DNA of 53,174 nt. It comes from a bacterium. Its GTDB lineage: Bacteria; Armatimonadota; UBA5829. Every line of letters starts with the position of its first letter. The stretch's first letter is position 1. Below the pieces are notes generated by a model. The model was not told the origin of the DNA and searched no databases. It saw nothing but the letters and a program-made list of their open reading frames with translations. The stretch spans positions 1 through 53,174 of the forward strand of contig JAJFTD010000019.1 in NCBI GenBank assembly GCA_021373255.1. Direction: 5' to 3'. The position numbers and the translations under genes were made by a program. Of this stretch, positions 13,967-24,099 are shown in pieces.

Positions 13967-14027
13967 AGTTCAATTATATCACGAGTGGCTGCGCCGGATT
14001 ATATGGAAAAACCGATTGGTGATATGC

Positions 14028-14999
14028 ATGTCTGATATATTCGAGCTTGAAGAACAACTCAACAGCCCGGATGCAATCGAGCGTTCCGAAGTATTATGCT
14101 CGTTGGCATTTCGTATCGAGGCGGGAATGATCCCATCGCCGCCGGTGGGAAATGAAGTAAACTTACGCCTGCGCACGTCATTATCAATGATTACAGGCGG
14201 GCTCACCCCCACGGCGTTGGCTTGGAATGCTCGAAAGCAAGGGCTGCTTATTGCCGGGATGGTCGATCATGACACGCTTGAGGGCGTTGTTGAGTTCCTT
14301 GCTTCAGGAGACATTCTTAACCAGCAAACCGTTGCCGGAATAGAGGTCGATACATCCTTGCGCGAGTATAGCCAGGTGATTCACATGATCGCGGGTGGGT
14401 GCTGCAAACCACCGGATATTGGAAGCCGGGCGGCAATGCTAGCCGAATACATCTGCGATAATGCTCAGCATGGCGGCGAGCCATGTATTGTAGAACATGT
14501 AATTGAGATGTCCACCGGTATGGGCGCGGTGCCTACGTGGGTCTGGCCAAAAGGATTTTCATCTCTACACGATGCGCGTGAGATGGCTATCACTCTTGAA
14601 GAACTTGGAGTAGCAGCGCTCGCTATAACAATTTCGGACAGTAATGACATCAGCGATGCGGTCGAATTGGCCTGTGAATTCAACTTCCCTCTCCTAACAG
14701 GCTTTGAAGCAGGCCAACGGAGTATGTCGGACCCGTCACTAGAACCTTACATCGATGCTATCGCTAACGGAGCATCGTTCTTCTGGGGCCACACGTTTAT
14801 GGAGCGCAACGCCGGAATGGGCTTCTCCAGCGAATGGGCACGCTCGCACTTCGCCGGTGATCGCATCAGGAAAAATGAGTTTTATATCAAGGTTGGACGT
14901 CTGCTCAAACCCGGCGACGGACGCAGGATAGCCAGCGGCGCCAACTTCAGATCCGCCTCACCGAACCAACTGCTGAAAGCATTGGGGATTGGTCAATAA
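14028..14999 (+). CDS. PHP-domain-like protein with degraded metal site
   Basis: A 323-residue protein whose first half resembles the PHP phosphoesterase domain of DNA polymerase and histidinol-phosphatase relatives. Seen: NLRLRTSLSMITGGLTPTAL stands where NLHxHTxxSDG...S is expected, followed by MVDHDTLEGVVEF and AGIEVDTS, which match motifs two and three. The two histidines of the first motif are replaced (LRLR), so part of the metal centre is lost. Inference: either a binding or structural protein or an altered hydrolase. The ATG at 14028 is preferred over a TTG at 14016. The 3' end overlaps the convergent lipoprotein gene by 7 bases. Confidence 0.7.
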   Translation: MSDIFELEEQLNSPDAIERSEVLCSLAFRIEAGMIPSPPVGNEVNLRLRTSLSMITGGLTPTALAWNARKQGLLIAGMVDHDTLEGVVEFLASGDILNQQTVAGIEVDTSLREYSQVIHMIAGGCCKPPDIGSRAAMLAEYICDNAQHGGEPCIVEHVIEMSTGMGAVPTWVWPKGFSSLHDAREMAITLEELGVAALAITISDSNDISDAVELACEFNFPLLTGFEAGQRSMSDPSLEPYIDAIANGASFFWGHTFMERNAGMGFSSEWARSHFAGDRIRKNEFYIKVGRLLKPGDGRRIASGANFRSASPNQLLKALGIGQ

Positions 15000-15793
15000 T
15001 AGCGAACTGACTTCACGCTCACATTTACCGGAATCACGCCTGTGTTGATCTCGAATGCAGCCTCGCGAGCCTGGGCCATAGTGCGAAAACCGGTAAGGAA
15101 TGCTCTACCGCCCTTGATTGGACCATCCACTTGTGCAGCAGAGACCAAAGCTCCGTTATAGAACACTGCAAGATATTCTCCACGATTATCTCTGGTGAAC
15201 TCGTAGAAAGTCTCAGAGCCACGCTCGTTAAAACTGACCAACACTACCCACCCTGATTTCGTCTGATTGTAGGTTGCATTGCGTAGGATGTCCTCTCCGG
15301 TAAGGATAGGTTTCTCACCTACCTTCACTATCTGCTCCATCAACTCGTGCTGCTGGCTGCTGCTATTGATACGGTGGGAATTATGATCAGCAAAGATATA
15401 TGCGTTATTCTCACCAGACGCGCTCACCAGCTTCCAGGGTCTGCCGGGATGCTTTTTGGTAGCCACAGCACTGAGGTGGTAGAAGTCGATGCTGGTCTTT
15501 TCGATGAGGCGATTAACGTTTCGGCGGGATACTCTTTTGCCTGGAAGCAGAAGGACCAGTGAGTCATCGCTTACGGAATCCACTCGCGGCTTGTCTACAG
15601 CCGCTACTCCCTTGCTTCTATCAACCAGATATCCGCACAACTCCGCCAGTTTCTCGCGTGGTACATCTGTGCCTTGTTGAAAGGCCAGCGTGACCTTTGT
15701 ACCGGTTTTAGGTTCAAATCCCGAACAACCGGCAATGACTGCGATTATCACAGCAACAAGCACGAGACAAGCGGCTCGAATTGTGGAAGACAT
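14993..15793 (-). CDS. Lipoprotein with SecD first periplasmic (P1) domain-like fold
   Basis: A 266-residue predicted lipoprotein. Seen: a signal peptide ending in the lipobox VIAGC (about residue 23), then a region strikingly like the head subdomain of SecD: KPILTGEDI, SFNERGSETFYEFTRDN, LAVFYNGALVSAAQVDGPI, GGRAFLTGF and a final INTGVIPVNV. In SecD these motifs sit between membrane helices 1 and 2. Here there are no export-channel helices, only the lipid anchor. The start at 15793 has GGGGTG 7 bases upstream and begins the signal peptide cleanly. The role is unknown; it could be a stand-alone periplasmic chaperone-like factor (inference). It is divergent from the glycosidase-like gene. Confidence 0.7.
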   Translation of the reverse strand: MSSTIRAACLVLVAVIIAVIAGCSGFEPKTGTKVTLAFQQGTDVPREKLAELCGYLVDRSKGVAAVDKPRVDSVSDDSLVLLLPGKRVSRRNVNRLIEKTSIDFYHLSAVATKKHPGRPWKLVSASGENNAYIFADHNSHRINSSSQQHELMEQIVKVGEKPILTGEDILRNATYNQTKSGWVVLVSFNERGSETFYEFTRDNRGEYLAVFYNGALVSAAQVDGPIKGGRAFLTGFRTMAQAREAAFEINTGVIPVNVSVKSVRYY

Positions 15794-15864
15794 ATAATAG
15801 CACCCCAACATTTGTTCGTGAATGCGAGGCCGAATTCCTGCCGATAATGTGCGAAGAGGAATAC

Positions 15865-17256
15865 ATGCTGAAACTGTTTAAGAACCCGCCATCGCAGTAC
15901 CGGCCTGTTGTGCTAACCGGAGGAGATGGACCTATTGTATCATTTGAACGGATGAAACAAGAGGTCGATAATTTGGCGTGTACCGGATCGAGCACATGTA
16001 TGCCCCAACAAAGAAGAGTAGATTCCACCATCGGGCCGCAATCTCACAGGATATTCTCAGACTACGCCGCGCGGTTGGGGTATGTCTTTTCTCAAGGACG
16101 GCGGAGGGCTCAAGTAGCGGTGCTCCAGCCATATGGTAAATATAGTAGTCCACATATATCTAAGTTTGCTGATGAATATTTGCAAATGTTATACACTTCA
16201 CTGGCAAGAGAGCATATATCTTATCAATGTATAGATGAAGCAACTCTTAGTGAGGCGACTGCGTTGGACCAAGCCCTTATGACACCGGACGAGAATTACG
16301 AGTTGCTAATTGTGCCGCCAGTCACTTCAATGGGATATGAGGCAGCATTAAAGATAGAAGAGTTTATTGACGATGGCGGACGGGTGATGTGCTGTACGCT
16401 GCTGCCTGTGGAAGATGCGACAGGCTACAAGCATGAGGAAGTGCAGTCTATCTTTGCACAACTATATAATTATAATCCTATACAGTTGCTGACTGACTTC
16501 GACTCAGGCAAGCGGGTAAATGCTGGCCAGGTCAACTTTCCAGAAAATGGCGCTATATTCGTCGATTCACTGTGGCCAGAAAATATTTCTCCCATACTGC
16601 GAAAAATCATATCTCGTGCGATTAAGCCGGAAGTATCAATAAAATGGCAGGGGGCGGAGTGCGGGGACATCCAATACACTCATATATCGGTAGATGGAGG
16701 AGAACTGTTCTTCTTTGCCAACGGGTCGGACGCTCCCAGGGAAGTTCAGTTATCTGTAAGATGTGAAGGCGCACCTTGTGTAATGGACCTGGAAACCGGT
16801 GAACGCACCGCTCTTCTCAACTGCACACAACGGGGCAGCCGCACCATTCTTCTTCACCGGTTCGAGAGATACACATCGCTTCTCGTCGCATTTACCGATG
16901 AACCAGTAATGACCATCCCCTCACCAATTCTGGATGATGGCAATGCATTCCCCATTCCAGGAGCTTGGCAATGCACCAATAGGCAATACAGCCACACAGC
17001 CATATATGCCGGAGTCGCCCAGATTCCCGATTTCCTACGAGGACAGCGTATTTTCATCAAAGTCGCCCACCCCATTGGCTTGACAGAGTTTACTGTGAAC
17101 GGTGTTCTGGTGGGGATTCGTCCTTGGGCGCCTTTTGAGATGGATGTAAGCGCCCTGGTGAAACCGGGCCCTAACGAGATCAAGATTAAGATAATAAGCA
17201 ATTCTTCGGAGCCGTGCCAGGAATCCAACTGTAAAGCATGCATTTATATATGCTAG
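15865..17256 (+). CDS. Glycosidase-like protein lacking its catalytic barrel
   Basis: A 463-residue protein resembling the C-terminal part of large glycosidases of the GH2/GH106-like type. Seen: IFSDYAARLGYVFSQGRRRA (about residues 62-81) is the linker that follows the TIM barrel in such enzymes; then come a flavodoxin-like region (LIVPPVTSMGYEAA, FIDDGGRVM) and, at the C-terminus, a galactose-binding-like sandwich (FLRGQRIFIKVAH, GPNEIKIKI). Only about 60 residues precede the linker, so the catalytic barrel is absent. AGAGGA lies 5 bases before the ATG at 15865, so it may still be translated. Nothing upstream encodes the missing part, because the divergent lipoprotein gene occupies that DNA. 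It is either a decayed gene or a non-catalytic derivative. Confidence 0.6.
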   Translation: MLKLFKNPPSQYRPVVLTGGDGPIVSFERMKQEVDNLACTGSSTCMPQQRRVDSTIGPQSHRIFSDYAARLGYVFSQGRRRAQVAVLQPYGKYSSPHISKFADEYLQMLYTSLAREHISYQCIDEATLSEATALDQALMTPDENYELLIVPPVTSMGYEAALKIEEFIDDGGRVMCCTLLPVEDATGYKHEEVQSIFAQLYNYNPIQLLTDFDSGKRVNAGQVNFPENGAIFVDSLWPENISPILRKIISRAIKPEVSIKWQGAECGDIQYTHISVDGGELFFFANGSDAPREVQLSVRCEGAPCVMDLETGERTALLNCTQRGSRTILLHRFERYTSLLVAFTDEPVMTIPSPILDDGNAFPIPGAWQCTNRQYSHTAIYAGVAQIPDFLRGQRIFIKVAHPIGLTEFTVNGVLVGIRPWAPFEMDVSALVKPGPNEIKIKIISNSSEPCQESNCKACIYIC

Positions 17257-17371: not shown

Positions 17372-17797
17372 ATGAAACCGTTGATTCCGATTAAACGGTA
17401 CCCGGCTCTTGTGCTGTTTGCAGCAGCTTTGATGCTCTTGGCCTTGATTCCAGCCGCTTACGCTCAAGACGAACCGGTTGGAATCTTGACCATATCAATC
17501 ACGAATGATGGGCTGGTTCCCAGCGTTCAAAACCCTGTCGGCGGGCTTTACACCGTAGTGGTGCGCAACGACTCATCCAATCCACGAGGCATAGTAATGA
17601 GAGGTATTGATCTTTGCTGCGCCCCGTATACTAGACTAGTCAAGCTTATAAGCCCAGGCGAGCAGGTAACTTTCAGATGGTTCTTCCCATCCAACAGATC
17701 GGTGGAGATCAGGGACCTGGTCAGGTGCGAGCCGGCCGCAAGGACGTGCTCACCGTGGGTACCTGGTGGGATGATGACCAGAGTCAATTTCCTATAA
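17372..17797 (+). CDS. Small secreted protein with CC-type cupredoxin-like domain
   Basis: A 141-residue exported protein of unknown function. Seen: a signal peptide (residues 1-31, ending AAYAQ) followed by a single beta-rich domain with NPVGGLYTVVVRNDSS, RGIVMRGIDLCC, a PGEQVTFRWFF strand and two further cysteines (RC and TC). The same pattern of four cysteines recurs at the C-terminus of the gene at 18012-19106. The fold may be cupredoxin-like, but no copper His/Cys/Met set is visible. The ATG at 17372 has AGGAGG 8 bases upstream; longer in-frame starts lack one. It is followed by its own terminator, so it is probably a separate transcript. Confidence 0.7.
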   Translation: MKPLIPIKRYPALVLFAAALMLLALIPAAYAQDEPVGILTISITNDGLVPSVQNPVGGLYTVVVRNDSSNPRGIVMRGIDLCCAPYTRLVKLISPGEQVTFRWFFPSNRSVEIRDLVRCEPAARTCSPWVPGGMMTRVNFL

Positions 17798-17822
17798 CTT
17801 GCATTGACTCGCAATCAGTGAC

Positions 17823-17858
17823 AACAAGTAGGGTGCGATTTTGCGCCCTACTTGTTTA
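17823..17858 (+). terminator. Rho-independent terminator after the small secreted protein
   Basis: Arms ACAAGTAGGG (17824-17833) and CCCTACTTGT (17846-17855) pair perfectly. The stem can extend inward by four pairs, two of them wobble, around a four-base loop, and it is followed by TT and an AT-rich stretch. Confidence 0.75.
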
Positions 17859-18011
17859 TAACATTCTACGTGCATGTATGAGTACGCTCGCCACATTTAA
17901 CATCTGATAGCTTCACTAATACACCGTTTGCTTCATTCTGTCATCGGGTAGTATTCTTCCAGAAGTAAATAGCTTTGACACCAAACAAGGTGCAGGAGGG
18001 GGATACCCGAG

Positions 18012-19106
18012 ATGAACAGAAATTGTGTTGCTCTGATACTGGCCCTTTGCCTTATTCCAGCAATAGCACTAGCTAACGGCTACCAACAGAACACTGGATC
18101 GGCGATGGGCATACAGACTTCACAGCCTGCGGCATTCGGTGCAGGCCAGCAATCGGTTTTTCGCGCATCCAGTGTCAGTAACCAGGCCTACCTCGTGCCA
18201 CTCGACACGTCCGGCACAATCACGCCTCAACCGATTACAGGTGCAATTAGTATGGTAGGCACACTACGCTCAGCAACTGCAGGAGTGGACACGGGCAACG
18301 TAGCGGCTAGCTTCAACTACAACAGCCAGCCCTTTACAGTTCGTTTTACGAACATAGGGCCGATTTCGGGCGCACCGCAGGGATTCAGTGGTGTGGGGAT
18401 AATGAGCCCTGTGTTCGGCAACAATATGAGCATCAGCGGAGTGAATCTACCGCCCACAAACGCTTATGGCGCAATATCCGGCCAGGTCACCATATCCAGT
18501 GGTGCGCAGACTATTGCAACGAATCAAAATGCCATAGCTCTGGTAACACCCGCACTTCACGATGCGGCTAATCAACCACTTAGCACAGCGGACAACAGCT
18601 CTCAGGAGATCTACCTGATAGTGCCCGGTCCAATAGTAACCAGCGCGGCGTCTTCTCTGCCGTCCAATGGCTTCTATGCTTATTGGCCTGGGGCATCTTA
18701 CAGCATCGGAAATACCAGCACGGTTCTGAGCGCTCCGCCCATTGTCGGTTCAACACCCGCTATGGTTGGAAGGGGCCCGGCAGCAGAGGTAACGCCGCTC
18801 AGAATCAGCATCACAAACAATTCAATTAACATGTCACAACGAACTGTTCCTTATGGCCTGTATGAGATCACTATTGTGAATAATTCATCGAAGCCAAGAG
18901 GGCTTTATATGACCGGCAGAGACCTGTGCTGCACGCAGTTCAACAGGTATTCGAGGGTTTTGAAGCCCGGTGGAACGCAGACGTTCCGGTTCTTCTTTGC
19001 TCCCGGCACCGTCCAATTCAGGGACTTGACCGAGTGCACGCACGGGCAGAGGACTTGCGAGTTAGCGCACTTCGGTAAACTGAGATCATCAGTCACCTTC
19101 CAGTAG
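18012..19106 (+). CDS. Secreted protein with C-terminal CC-type domain
   Basis: A 364-residue exported protein. Seen: a signal peptide (residues 1-22), a Gly/Ser/Thr/Asn-rich middle that looks like beta strands and low-complexity surface sequence, and a C-terminal 100-residue domain paralogous to the gene at 17372-17797. Shared positions include PRGLYMTGRDLCC, a PG...TFRFFF strand, RDLTEC, RTC and the terminal V.F. The middle contains a GAISMVGTLRSATAG...VAASFNYNSQPFTVRF stretch reminiscent of CHRD-type beta domains, but that is weak. A strong AGGAGGGG lies 10 bases upstream of the ATG. The function is unknown; it is likely anchored or assembled at the surface. Confidence 0.7.
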   Translation: MNRNCVALILALCLIPAIALANGYQQNTGSAMGIQTSQPAAFGAGQQSVFRASSVSNQAYLVPLDTSGTITPQPITGAISMVGTLRSATAGVDTGNVAASFNYNSQPFTVRFTNIGPISGAPQGFSGVGIMSPVFGNNMSISGVNLPPTNAYGAISGQVTISSGAQTIATNQNAIALVTPALHDAANQPLSTADNSSQEIYLIVPGPIVTSAASSLPSNGFYAYWPGASYSIGNTSTVLSAPPIVGSTPAMVGRGPAAEVTPLRISITNNSINMSQRTVPYGLYEITIVNNSSKPRGLYMTGRDLCCTQFNRYSRVLKPGGTQTFRFFFAPGTVQFRDLTECTHGQRTCELAHFGKLRSSVTFQ

Positions 19107-19116
19107 GCATACAAAC

Positions 19117-19149
19117 ATCTGGGGCGCTTTGGTGAGCGCCCCAGATTTT
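19117..19149. terminator. Bidirectional terminator between convergent genes
   Basis: A 12-bp perfect stem is formed by 19117-19128 and 19135-19146 (core TCTGGGGCGCT), with a six-base loop and TTTTA after it on the plus strand. It separates the secreted-protein gene from the convergent small gene at 19148. Confidence 0.85.
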
Positions 19150-22646: not shown

Positions 22647-23960
22647 CTAGTGAGCCATGCGTTTTGGATGGATGCGAAGATAAATCAGCCAGCCTGTCGG
22701 GTTGTCACCGTAGACGGATTTAAGATTGCCTGGGATAGTATTGAGCAGAAACTCGCCACCGATTGCCCAGGACAGGCTGCCGGTGGTGAAGATGTCCCGC
22801 GTAGCGCCAAGGGTAAGCTGCTGGAGGTTGAACACCTGGCTGAGTGGGAAATTACTGGGGAGGACCAATTCCTCAGCGCTTTTCTTTATGTATTCATAAC
22901 GCAGAAACGGGGTCCAGCCTTGATCGTGTTTTAACTGTGCCTCTACCAGATATGCATCTAGGTTCTGATGACTTATTCGATTACGCGCCCATAGGAATGT
23001 GGTCTGGAAGTTACTCCTTGGACTTAATGGATGGTTATACATAACAGATACATCACTACGATGTGTATCCTCTTCAGGGTGAAGCGACTCGGGACTGTGC
23101 AGGTATGCATAAGATCCCTCCAAGGCCCAGTTGGGATTGGGATTGAATGAGATGCGGCCGCTGAACGAATCGAATTTAGGGCTTTGAAACGCAATGCGGT
23201 TCTCGCCGGGCTCGCGACCATTGAAGCTGGAAGCATCTAGTTTCCACTTTTGCGTATTGTAACCCAGAGTTGCAACCCAGAACGAGATATGGGTCGCGTC
23301 CTGCCAGTGGTGGCCGATTGGAGCAAGGGGATCATCAAGCCCAAATGTACGGTGGAGATAAGTTACCGGGCCAAATGCAGGTTCACCTACTGGTCCGAAA
23401 TAGGCAAATGCCGCCGAGTTTCTTGTAAGTGAGTGAGTGTAATATGCCGAAAGCTCGGAGATGTAGTTGTGGGGATGCTGGTGATCTTTTAACGGTTCAT
23501 CATTCCAGGTTTCGCCGGTCTGCAGCAGCAGTGGGTAACCTGCGCCTCCGACGGTAAGCGGCTCAATGGATATCATGGTCGAGAGGCGTATAGCGCTCTG
23601 TTCATTCAGACGACGGTAAGCCATCGCCATCTCCCAGTTGGTCAGGATTACCTTGTCGTCGCCCCGGGGGCCGTTCATTTTATCATACGCAAGGAACGCC
23701 GCTCCGTGGTACATCAATCGCCACTCACCCGCTTGCTGCATAACCCCATACATAGGTGTGCTATCAGGCAGCCATGATGTCCCGGAACCATGCCTCGAAA
23801 ATGGAATACCGATAGGCTCTTCACCCATCGGCATACCGGTCATACCCCCCATTGACTCACCGGGCATATTCATATCGCCATGATCAGACATGCCCTGGCA
23901 ATGAGTATTTACTGTCGTCAAGAAAATCAGGATGATTATTGCAATAGTATACGAGGGCAT
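22647..23960 (-). CDS. Outer-membrane barrel protein with Met/His-rich N-terminus
   Basis: A 437-residue predicted outer-membrane protein. Seen: a signal peptide (about residues 1-22), then a segment rich in Met, His, Asp and Gly (SDHGDMNMPGESMGGMTGMP), then many alternating amphipathic strands with aromatic ends (WRLMYHGAAFLAY, LYQ-like repeats) through to a C-terminal WLIYLRIH strand. The Met/His segment resembles copper-binding stretches in copper-resistance proteins, which suggests metal handling (inference). The start at 23960 is chosen because it begins the signal peptide; the ribosome site is weak. It is divergent from the glycyl radical operon and shares that control region. Confidence 0.65.
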   Translation of the reverse strand: MPSYTIAIIILIFLTTVNTHCQGMSDHGDMNMPGESMGGMTGMPMGEEPIGIPFSRHGSGTSWLPDSTPMYGVMQQAGEWRLMYHGAAFLAYDKMNGPRGDDKVILTNWEMAMAYRRLNEQSAIRLSTMISIEPLTVGGAGYPLLLQTGETWNDEPLKDHQHPHNYISELSAYYTHSLTRNSAAFAYFGPVGEPAFGPVTYLHRTFGLDDPLAPIGHHWQDATHISFWVATLGYNTQKWKLDASSFNGREPGENRIAFQSPKFDSFSGRISFNPNPNWALEGSYAYLHSPESLHPEEDTHRSDVSVMYNHPLSPRSNFQTTFLWARNRISHQNLDAYLVEAQLKHDQGWTPFLRYEYIKKSAEELVLPSNFPLSQVFNLQQLTLGATRDIFTTGSLSWAIGGEFLLNTIPGNLKSVYGDNPTGWLIYLRIHPKRMAH

Positions 23961-24099
23961 AACAGTATCCAGCCTCACTATACGTTAATTCGGTAGATGC
24001 ATATATTATGCTCAGTTTCCTGTTGAGCTAAACTCTTATTGATCTACTTTAATGTCTGCAGCTTGTATCGCCAAGATGATTTTATTAATTATATAACTC

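Follow-up and report, generated by a model that had tools for sequence, protein, structure and literature searches.

Two adjacent genes and their exported-looking products

The window, i.e. the whole stretch of 53,174 nucleotides of Armatimonadota DNA that was analysed, carries two adjacent genes, P0001 and P0002. Both products are probably exported, judging by eye from their signal-peptide-like starts, and a ribosome-binding site of GGAGG type is seen by eye before the start of P0001. A strong hairpin follows each gene, so the two may be transcribed separately. The locus comprises the following features:

17372..17797, + strand: P0001, single-domain exported-looking protein, 141 aa (ORF list, translation)
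17372..17464, + strand: likely signal peptide of P0001 (PAAYA|QDE; by eye)
17486..17791, + strand: predicted copper-free cupredoxin-fold domain of P0001 (pairwise alignment, model, fold search)
17585..17587, + strand: Arg of P0001 at the place of the first copper His (alignment with a cupredoxin keeping the copper residues)
17609..17620, + strand: DLCC motif of P0001, in the loop between predicted domain strands 44-51 and 57-65 (sequence, model)
17714..17716, + strand: Asp of P0001 at the place of the copper Cys (alignment)
17726..17749, + strand: C-x6-C hairpin of P0001 (sequence, model)
17823..17856, + strand: strong hairpin 3' of P0001, probable terminator, -24.1 kcal/mol, z -8.0
18012..19106, + strand: P0002, two-domain exported-looking protein, 364 aa (ORF list, translation)
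18012..18074, + strand: likely signal peptide of P0002 (AIALA|NG; by eye)
18162..18725, + strand: conserved N-terminal domain of P0002, predicted all-beta, about 190 aa (alignment, model, profile search, entropy)
18798..19100, + strand: predicted copper-free cupredoxin-fold domain of P0002 (pairwise alignment, model, fold and profile search)
18897..18899, + strand: Arg of P0002 at the place of the first copper His (alignment)
18921..18932, + strand: DLCC motif of P0002 (sequence, alignment)
19023..19025, + strand: Asp of P0002 at the place of the copper Cys (alignment)
19035..19058, + strand: C-x6-C hairpin of P0002 (sequence)
19117..19146, + strand: terminator-like hairpin separating P0002 from the convergent gene, -25.6 kcal/mol, z -6.1

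The original prediction that two neighbouring exported proteins share a domain of about 100 residues is borne out: in a BLASTP alignment 41 of 102 positions are identical and 57 of 102 similar (E 7e-23 for the pair). The motif blocks ISITN, GLY, SSxPRGxxMxGxDLCC, PG...TFRxFF, RDLxxC and RTC and the closing VxF align as described, and the four cysteines of each domain fall into one-to-one columns. The proposed layout holds in part. P0001 consists of one such domain and P0002 carries it at the C-terminus, but the long region ahead of it, taken for low-complexity sequence, is nothing of the kind: no 25-residue stretch falls below 3.0 bits of entropy, and residues 51-238 are conserved. S, A, G, T and P abound in the stretch before the shared domain, whose mean 25-residue entropy is 3.33 bits versus 3.58 in the C-terminal part, and residues 51-238 align with 11 relatives at 22-36% identity. 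This region is a second conserved domain that the earlier description had missed. A profile of it alone retrieves the same 12 of 291 genomes as the two-domain protein, the frames being 352-435 residues long. For this domain no model of Pfam or NCBIfam scores above its cut-off, and the single match of the profile to the PDB, a ubiquitin ligase at E 0.052, was taken as chance. The AlphaFold2 model of the whole of P0002 is weak (pLDDT 67.7); in it the N-terminal domain is predicted to be all beta, with ten-residue pLDDT means of 51 to 88 over residues 51-230.

Among 291 Armatimonadota genomes, the two-domain profile A2 matches 14, and 12 of these encode the two-domain protein; G015 and G017, of the family-level group f2, have two tandem cupredoxin-like domains without the N-terminal one. 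Profile A8 matches 19 of 291 genomes and the family is present in 14 of them, the matches in G029, G074, G106, G163 and G245 having been rejected as non-members. In group f1, which includes the genome of the window (G000), the single-domain gene occurs, among genomes with the family, only there and in G003, both times directly before the two-domain gene. No third copy was seen in the window's genome (4.19 Mb), where A8 returns only P0001 and P0002 at E <= 0.01; a search with the P0002 domain up to E 10 gives one further match, on G000:C157 (L008, E 0.034), which contains an internal stop and was dropped. The first genome scan stands at 12 of 101 genomes after the removal of G057 and G077 (14 before), whose matches (L021, L022) are interrupted in frame by five and three stops and lie antisense to a long gene, presumably thioredoxin-domain-like. 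As to taxonomic labels, relatives L058, L059 and L061 come from Armatimonadetes metagenome-assembled genomes and L060 is labelled "bacterium" only. Beyond the phylum, reach was gauged by two scans of genome contigs with narrow patterns, the first of which gave 0 of 100 stretches; scans of viral contigs returned no relatives and tblastn no match in plasmids.

Predicted fold of the shared domain and its lost copper site

The AlphaFold2 model of the P0001 domain (pLDDT 88.6, pTM 0.79) is a beta sandwich of eight strands. Foldseek places auracyanin 6KOL first (E 2.9e-4, the sole match below 0.001), and nearly all of the 50 matches listed are cupredoxins or copper enzymes by title. With VIA-align, titles naming a copper protein, a cupredoxin, EfeO or FtrB account for 49 of the 50 matches listed, and coagulation factor VIII is the remaining one; the N-terminal domain of EfeO leads (Z 10.6, 2.6 A, 89 aligned), and FtrB (Z 9.7, 2.7 A, 88 aligned) and 4HCF (Z 9.7, 2.5 A, 86 aligned) are also among the matches. 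The P0002 domain, for which the fold-search rows span residues 257-364, likewise finds EfeO (Z 11.9, 2.6 A, 88 aligned). Structure prediction, one of the checks proposed at the outset, gave no differing folds for the two domains. On the sequence side, a PDB search with P0001 alone yielded nothing useful, profile A8 finds EfeO (E 0.0053) and nothing else below 0.01 in the PDB, and the same profile matches a protein of genome G042 (E 9.8e-7) in which the copper-site H, C, H and M are kept, as seen by eye. The cupredoxin-like strand pattern proposed earlier agrees with structure prediction, fold search, a weak EfeO profile match and the alignment to this copper-type G042 protein, which belongs to the same phylum. 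By its model, the shared domain is a Greek-key beta sandwich of about 8 strands with the cupredoxin fold.

It is very improbable that the domain is instead an Ig-like sandwich of HYDIN type, a plain surface-protein module. PF22544 (Ig-like HYDIN_VesB_CFA65-like) does touch three of ten A2 members at 12.2-18.1 bits (best E 0.0033) and P0003 at 14.1 bits, and profile A8 also reaches a long G163 frame that resembles Ig-type repeats by eye. Every PF22544 match, however, stays below the 25.5-bit cut-off, cupredoxins top the fold searches throughout, and EfeO comes first in the PDB profile search. Since the single-sequence Ig-like matches rival the EfeO profile match, it is the fold search, not sequence, that carries the weight in favour of the cupredoxin fold. 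Further weak Pfam matches (mucin, auxin-repressed, NOMO1-like, DUF1416 and others), below their cut-offs where scores are given, were discarded.

The absence of copper ligands, also proposed from the outset, holds for the first His and the Cys in every family domain aligned. Copper-site columns were set by alignment with the G042 protein, and the column tally covers these two ligands. Both tallied columns are replaced in all 18 family domains: the first His by R (12), Q (5) or K (1), the Cys by D (9), P (4), E (2) or S (3). Arg and Asp occur together in nine rows, five from f1 and four from f2, and Q is combined with P in the two-domain proteins encoded by the four congeners of the window's genome. 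L089, L090 and L091 were kept out of this alignment; L087, L088 and the second G042 match (L095) were aligned but are outside the 18, L087 keeping the first His with Asp instead of Cys and L088 having Arg and Ser. The His-Cys-His-Met set of type-1 blue copper sites is accordingly incomplete in 18 of 18 domains, which lack the first His and the Cys, and the family domain, on its sequence and predicted fold, is one without a type-1 copper site. The emptied site would be filled by other side chains, namely Arg and Asp in half of the aligned domains, and these two probably touch each other there.

Several characterised proteins resemble the family in fold and differ from it in their attributes. 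EfeO is described as combining a cupredoxin domain with an M75 domain (PMC9174327). The likeness to its N-terminal domain (Cup-I, 7WGU; Z 10.6 and 11.9 for the two shared domains) is accompanied by weak NCBIfam EfeO matches in two of ten members (best E 0.015). P0001 and P0002, in contrast, reach only 10.6-13 bits against the EfeO model NF041757, whose cut-off is 270; no M75 domain was found in them, the copper His and Cys positions are replaced in the family, and a DxCC loop is present. FtrB (Cup-II, 8VUK; Z 9.7 and 10.8) has a single cupredoxin domain, as does P0001, and is presented as a copper-binding part of an iron transporter (PMC11966278), whereas no iron transport family appears among the ten scanned neighbours of P0001 and P0002. 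The same paper recounts that azurin with its Cys replaced by Asp still binds copper (PMC11966278), which, along with EfeO and FtrB being the nearest folds, would suit a retained non-classical binding of iron or copper with Asp in place of Cys. Such retention is nonetheless scarcely probable, as Arg, Gln or Lys takes the place of the first His in all 18 domains and P0001 and P0002 show no M75 domain. The P0001 domain is also alike in fold to Cupredoxin_1 (PF13473; 4HCF) and auracyanin 6KOL; unlike Cupredoxin_1, P0001 and P0002 have the first His and Cys replaced, and they show no match to that model up to E 10.

PF13473 does match at two other places in the window's genome. A Cupredoxin_1 domain there heads a long frame (L099 from 1459; G000:C60:6588-6914), the remainder of which we take to be P-type ATPase-like by its motifs.

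No Pfam or NCBIfam model, and hence no characterised family with known function represented there, matched the proteins above its cut-off, in keeping with the original suggestion of an uncharacterised family, and a literature search found no publication on it. P0002 and its relatives make up an unnamed family, of a predicted fold that is itself well known, consisting of two-domain, probably exported proteins in Armatimonadota.

The cysteine pair and the possible role of the family

The motif D[LIY]CC is present in 9 of 9 aligned domains of f1 and in 0 of 9 of f2, f3 and f6. Domains of f2 and f3 have the loop with other residues in it; those of f6 and the copper-type protein of G042 are without the loop. 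The tree unites all nine DLCC domains in a single clade (ultrafast bootstrap 100, SH-aLRT 99) and joins the two single-domain proteins to each other at 100/99; deeper forks were not used, because 10 of its 18 internal branches stay open and there was a warning of long branches meeting. The cysteine pair is a gain, limited among the aligned domains to this one family-level group. A second pair is more variable: it is C-x6-C in P0001, P0002, the single-domain protein of G003 and the G005 protein, a further CC in the two-domain proteins that the four congeners encode, and missing in G007. The sole cysteine of the G007 protein besides the CC pair is residue 19, in the signal peptide. With no other cysteine in the mature G007 protein, the only partners available to the two are one another, a separate molecule or a metal, and this speaks for either a vicinal disulfide or a dithiol left unpaired.

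In the standard cupredoxin topology, the loop between strands 4 and 5 and the copper loop lie at opposite poles. The D-[LIY]-C-C motif of f1 would sit in the strand 4-5 loop, at the pole opposite the old copper site, and its cysteines most likely form a vicinal disulfide stiffening a protruding turn. The second pair, where it is C-x6-C, may close the hairpin of the old copper loop. The proteins would have a structural or ligand-binding, non-redox role outside the cytoplasm, the module acting alone or at the C-terminus behind the conserved all-beta domain. To the whole of this account, a copper-free cupredoxin-fold domain serving as a non-redox extracytoplasmic structural or ligand-binding module, with a CC turn (vicinal disulfide) in one lineage, we assign a probability of roughly 50%.

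Part of its support comes from the disulfide-making enzyme VKOR (PF07884), which also figures in one of the alternatives and was searched for in 15 f1 genomes. It passes its cut-off in six of them (G001-G005, G007), i.e. six of the seven f1 genomes with the DLCC family (G000-G005, G007) versus none of the eight without. A calculation by hand gives 7/5005 = 0.0014 for this co-occurrence, ignoring the kinship of the genomes. G007 has both the family and VKOR, and its congener G011 has neither. Some f1 genomes are incomplete, namely G013 (67%) and G014 (84%), which have neither, and G002 (80%), which has both. Against the link, the window's genome is the only f1 genome with the family and no VKOR over the cut-off (best E 0.22), VKOR is also found in three of four f2 and f3 genomes, whose domains are without CC, and DsbB has no match in 21 genomes. 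COX1, among f1, is present in G000, G007 and G011 and absent from the four congeners of G000, a pattern different from that of VKOR, so aerobic respiration via that oxidase offers no explanation.

A first alternative, in which the CC cysteines pair with the two later ones in two normal intradomain disulfides, is unlikely. P0001, P0002, the G003 single-domain protein and the G005 protein have exactly four domain cysteines, and the second CC of the four congeners' two-domain proteins keeps the count even; yet G007 retains its CC without any later cysteine, and the standard topology puts the two loops at opposite poles. The CC of all nine f1 domains and its co-occurrence with VKOR would also fit a redox-active or sensing dithiol, loaded by VKOR and reporting or passing on the extracytoplasmic redox state. 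This reading is rather doubtful, given that VKOR stays below its cut-off in G000 itself and that no thioredoxin-type family appears among the ten neighbouring proteins scanned against Pfam. Distinctly improbable, too, is a relocated metal site, with a soft metal such as Cu(I) bound by the cysteines and a scavenging or chaperone role in metal handling for the protein: the fold search does list the Cu(I) chaperone CupA (4f2e), of cupredoxin fold (Z 8.7, 2.9 A, 87 aligned), but the second cysteine pair shifts or vanishes among relatives, and no metal transport family was detected among the ten scanned neighbours. It is tempting to speculate, with little confidence, that a cupredoxin which lost its copper was rebuilt as a vicinal-disulfide device, the VKOR-oxidised CC loop being a redox-controlled turn that grips an extracytoplasmic ligand or the second domain.

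With these proteins a poorly studied phylum gains an unnamed two-domain family that is probably exported. Armatimonadota contain a cupredoxin with copper residues, relatives that lack these, and others that lack them yet carry the CC loop, so that loss of the metal site and gain of the cysteine pair can be traced within one phylum. Real interest would arise only if the CC pair proves functional; otherwise it is modest.

Genomic surroundings

In six of the seven f1 genomes with the family, a PHP-like and a GH106-like gene lie upstream on the same strand; they are not within the 17 kb compared in G001. The PHP-like gene scores 22.4 bits in the window (cut-off 26.4), and its G005 copy has no Pfam match; the GH106-like gene scores 57.6 bits in G005 and 27.9 in the window, with a cut-off of 29. 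Six of the seven genomes also have, after the family genes and tail to tail with them, one or both of two small genes, one of which shows a very weak DUF2802 match (17.9 vs 33.5 bits). Beyond these small genes lies, in G005 and G007, what we take from the gene sequences to be a flagellar cluster.

A flagellar function was considered and set aside: in G005 and G007 the cluster faces the family genes tail to tail and therefore shares no transcript with them. A sugar-related function suggested by the PHP-like and GH106-like neighbours was likewise rejected, the link being weak because the exported protein keeps its length although the window has a truncated PHP-like gene and its genus a shortened GH106-like one. 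Altogether the neighbours, ten of which were scanned against Pfam, give no proof of a role.

The surroundings show some changes of their own. The PHP-like gene of the window (14016-14999) encodes 327 aa, compared with 449-476 in five relatives, and in place of the HFH in their N-terminal motif it reads RLR, so the metal site looks lost. The GH106-like product (window 15781-17256) measures 422-491 aa in the window and three congeners and 749-776 in G005 and G007, the short copies being without the N-terminal part and an inner stretch. Further along, at 22647-23978, the window encodes an exported-looking protein with a start rich in Met, Gly and His, for which the compared loci have no counterpart. 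Antisense between the PHP-like and GH106-like genes, at 14993-15811, lies a gene whose product looks by eye like a lipoprotein and carries a SecDF P1 head domain (E 1.1e-18); among the compared loci, only G007 also has it, in the same place.
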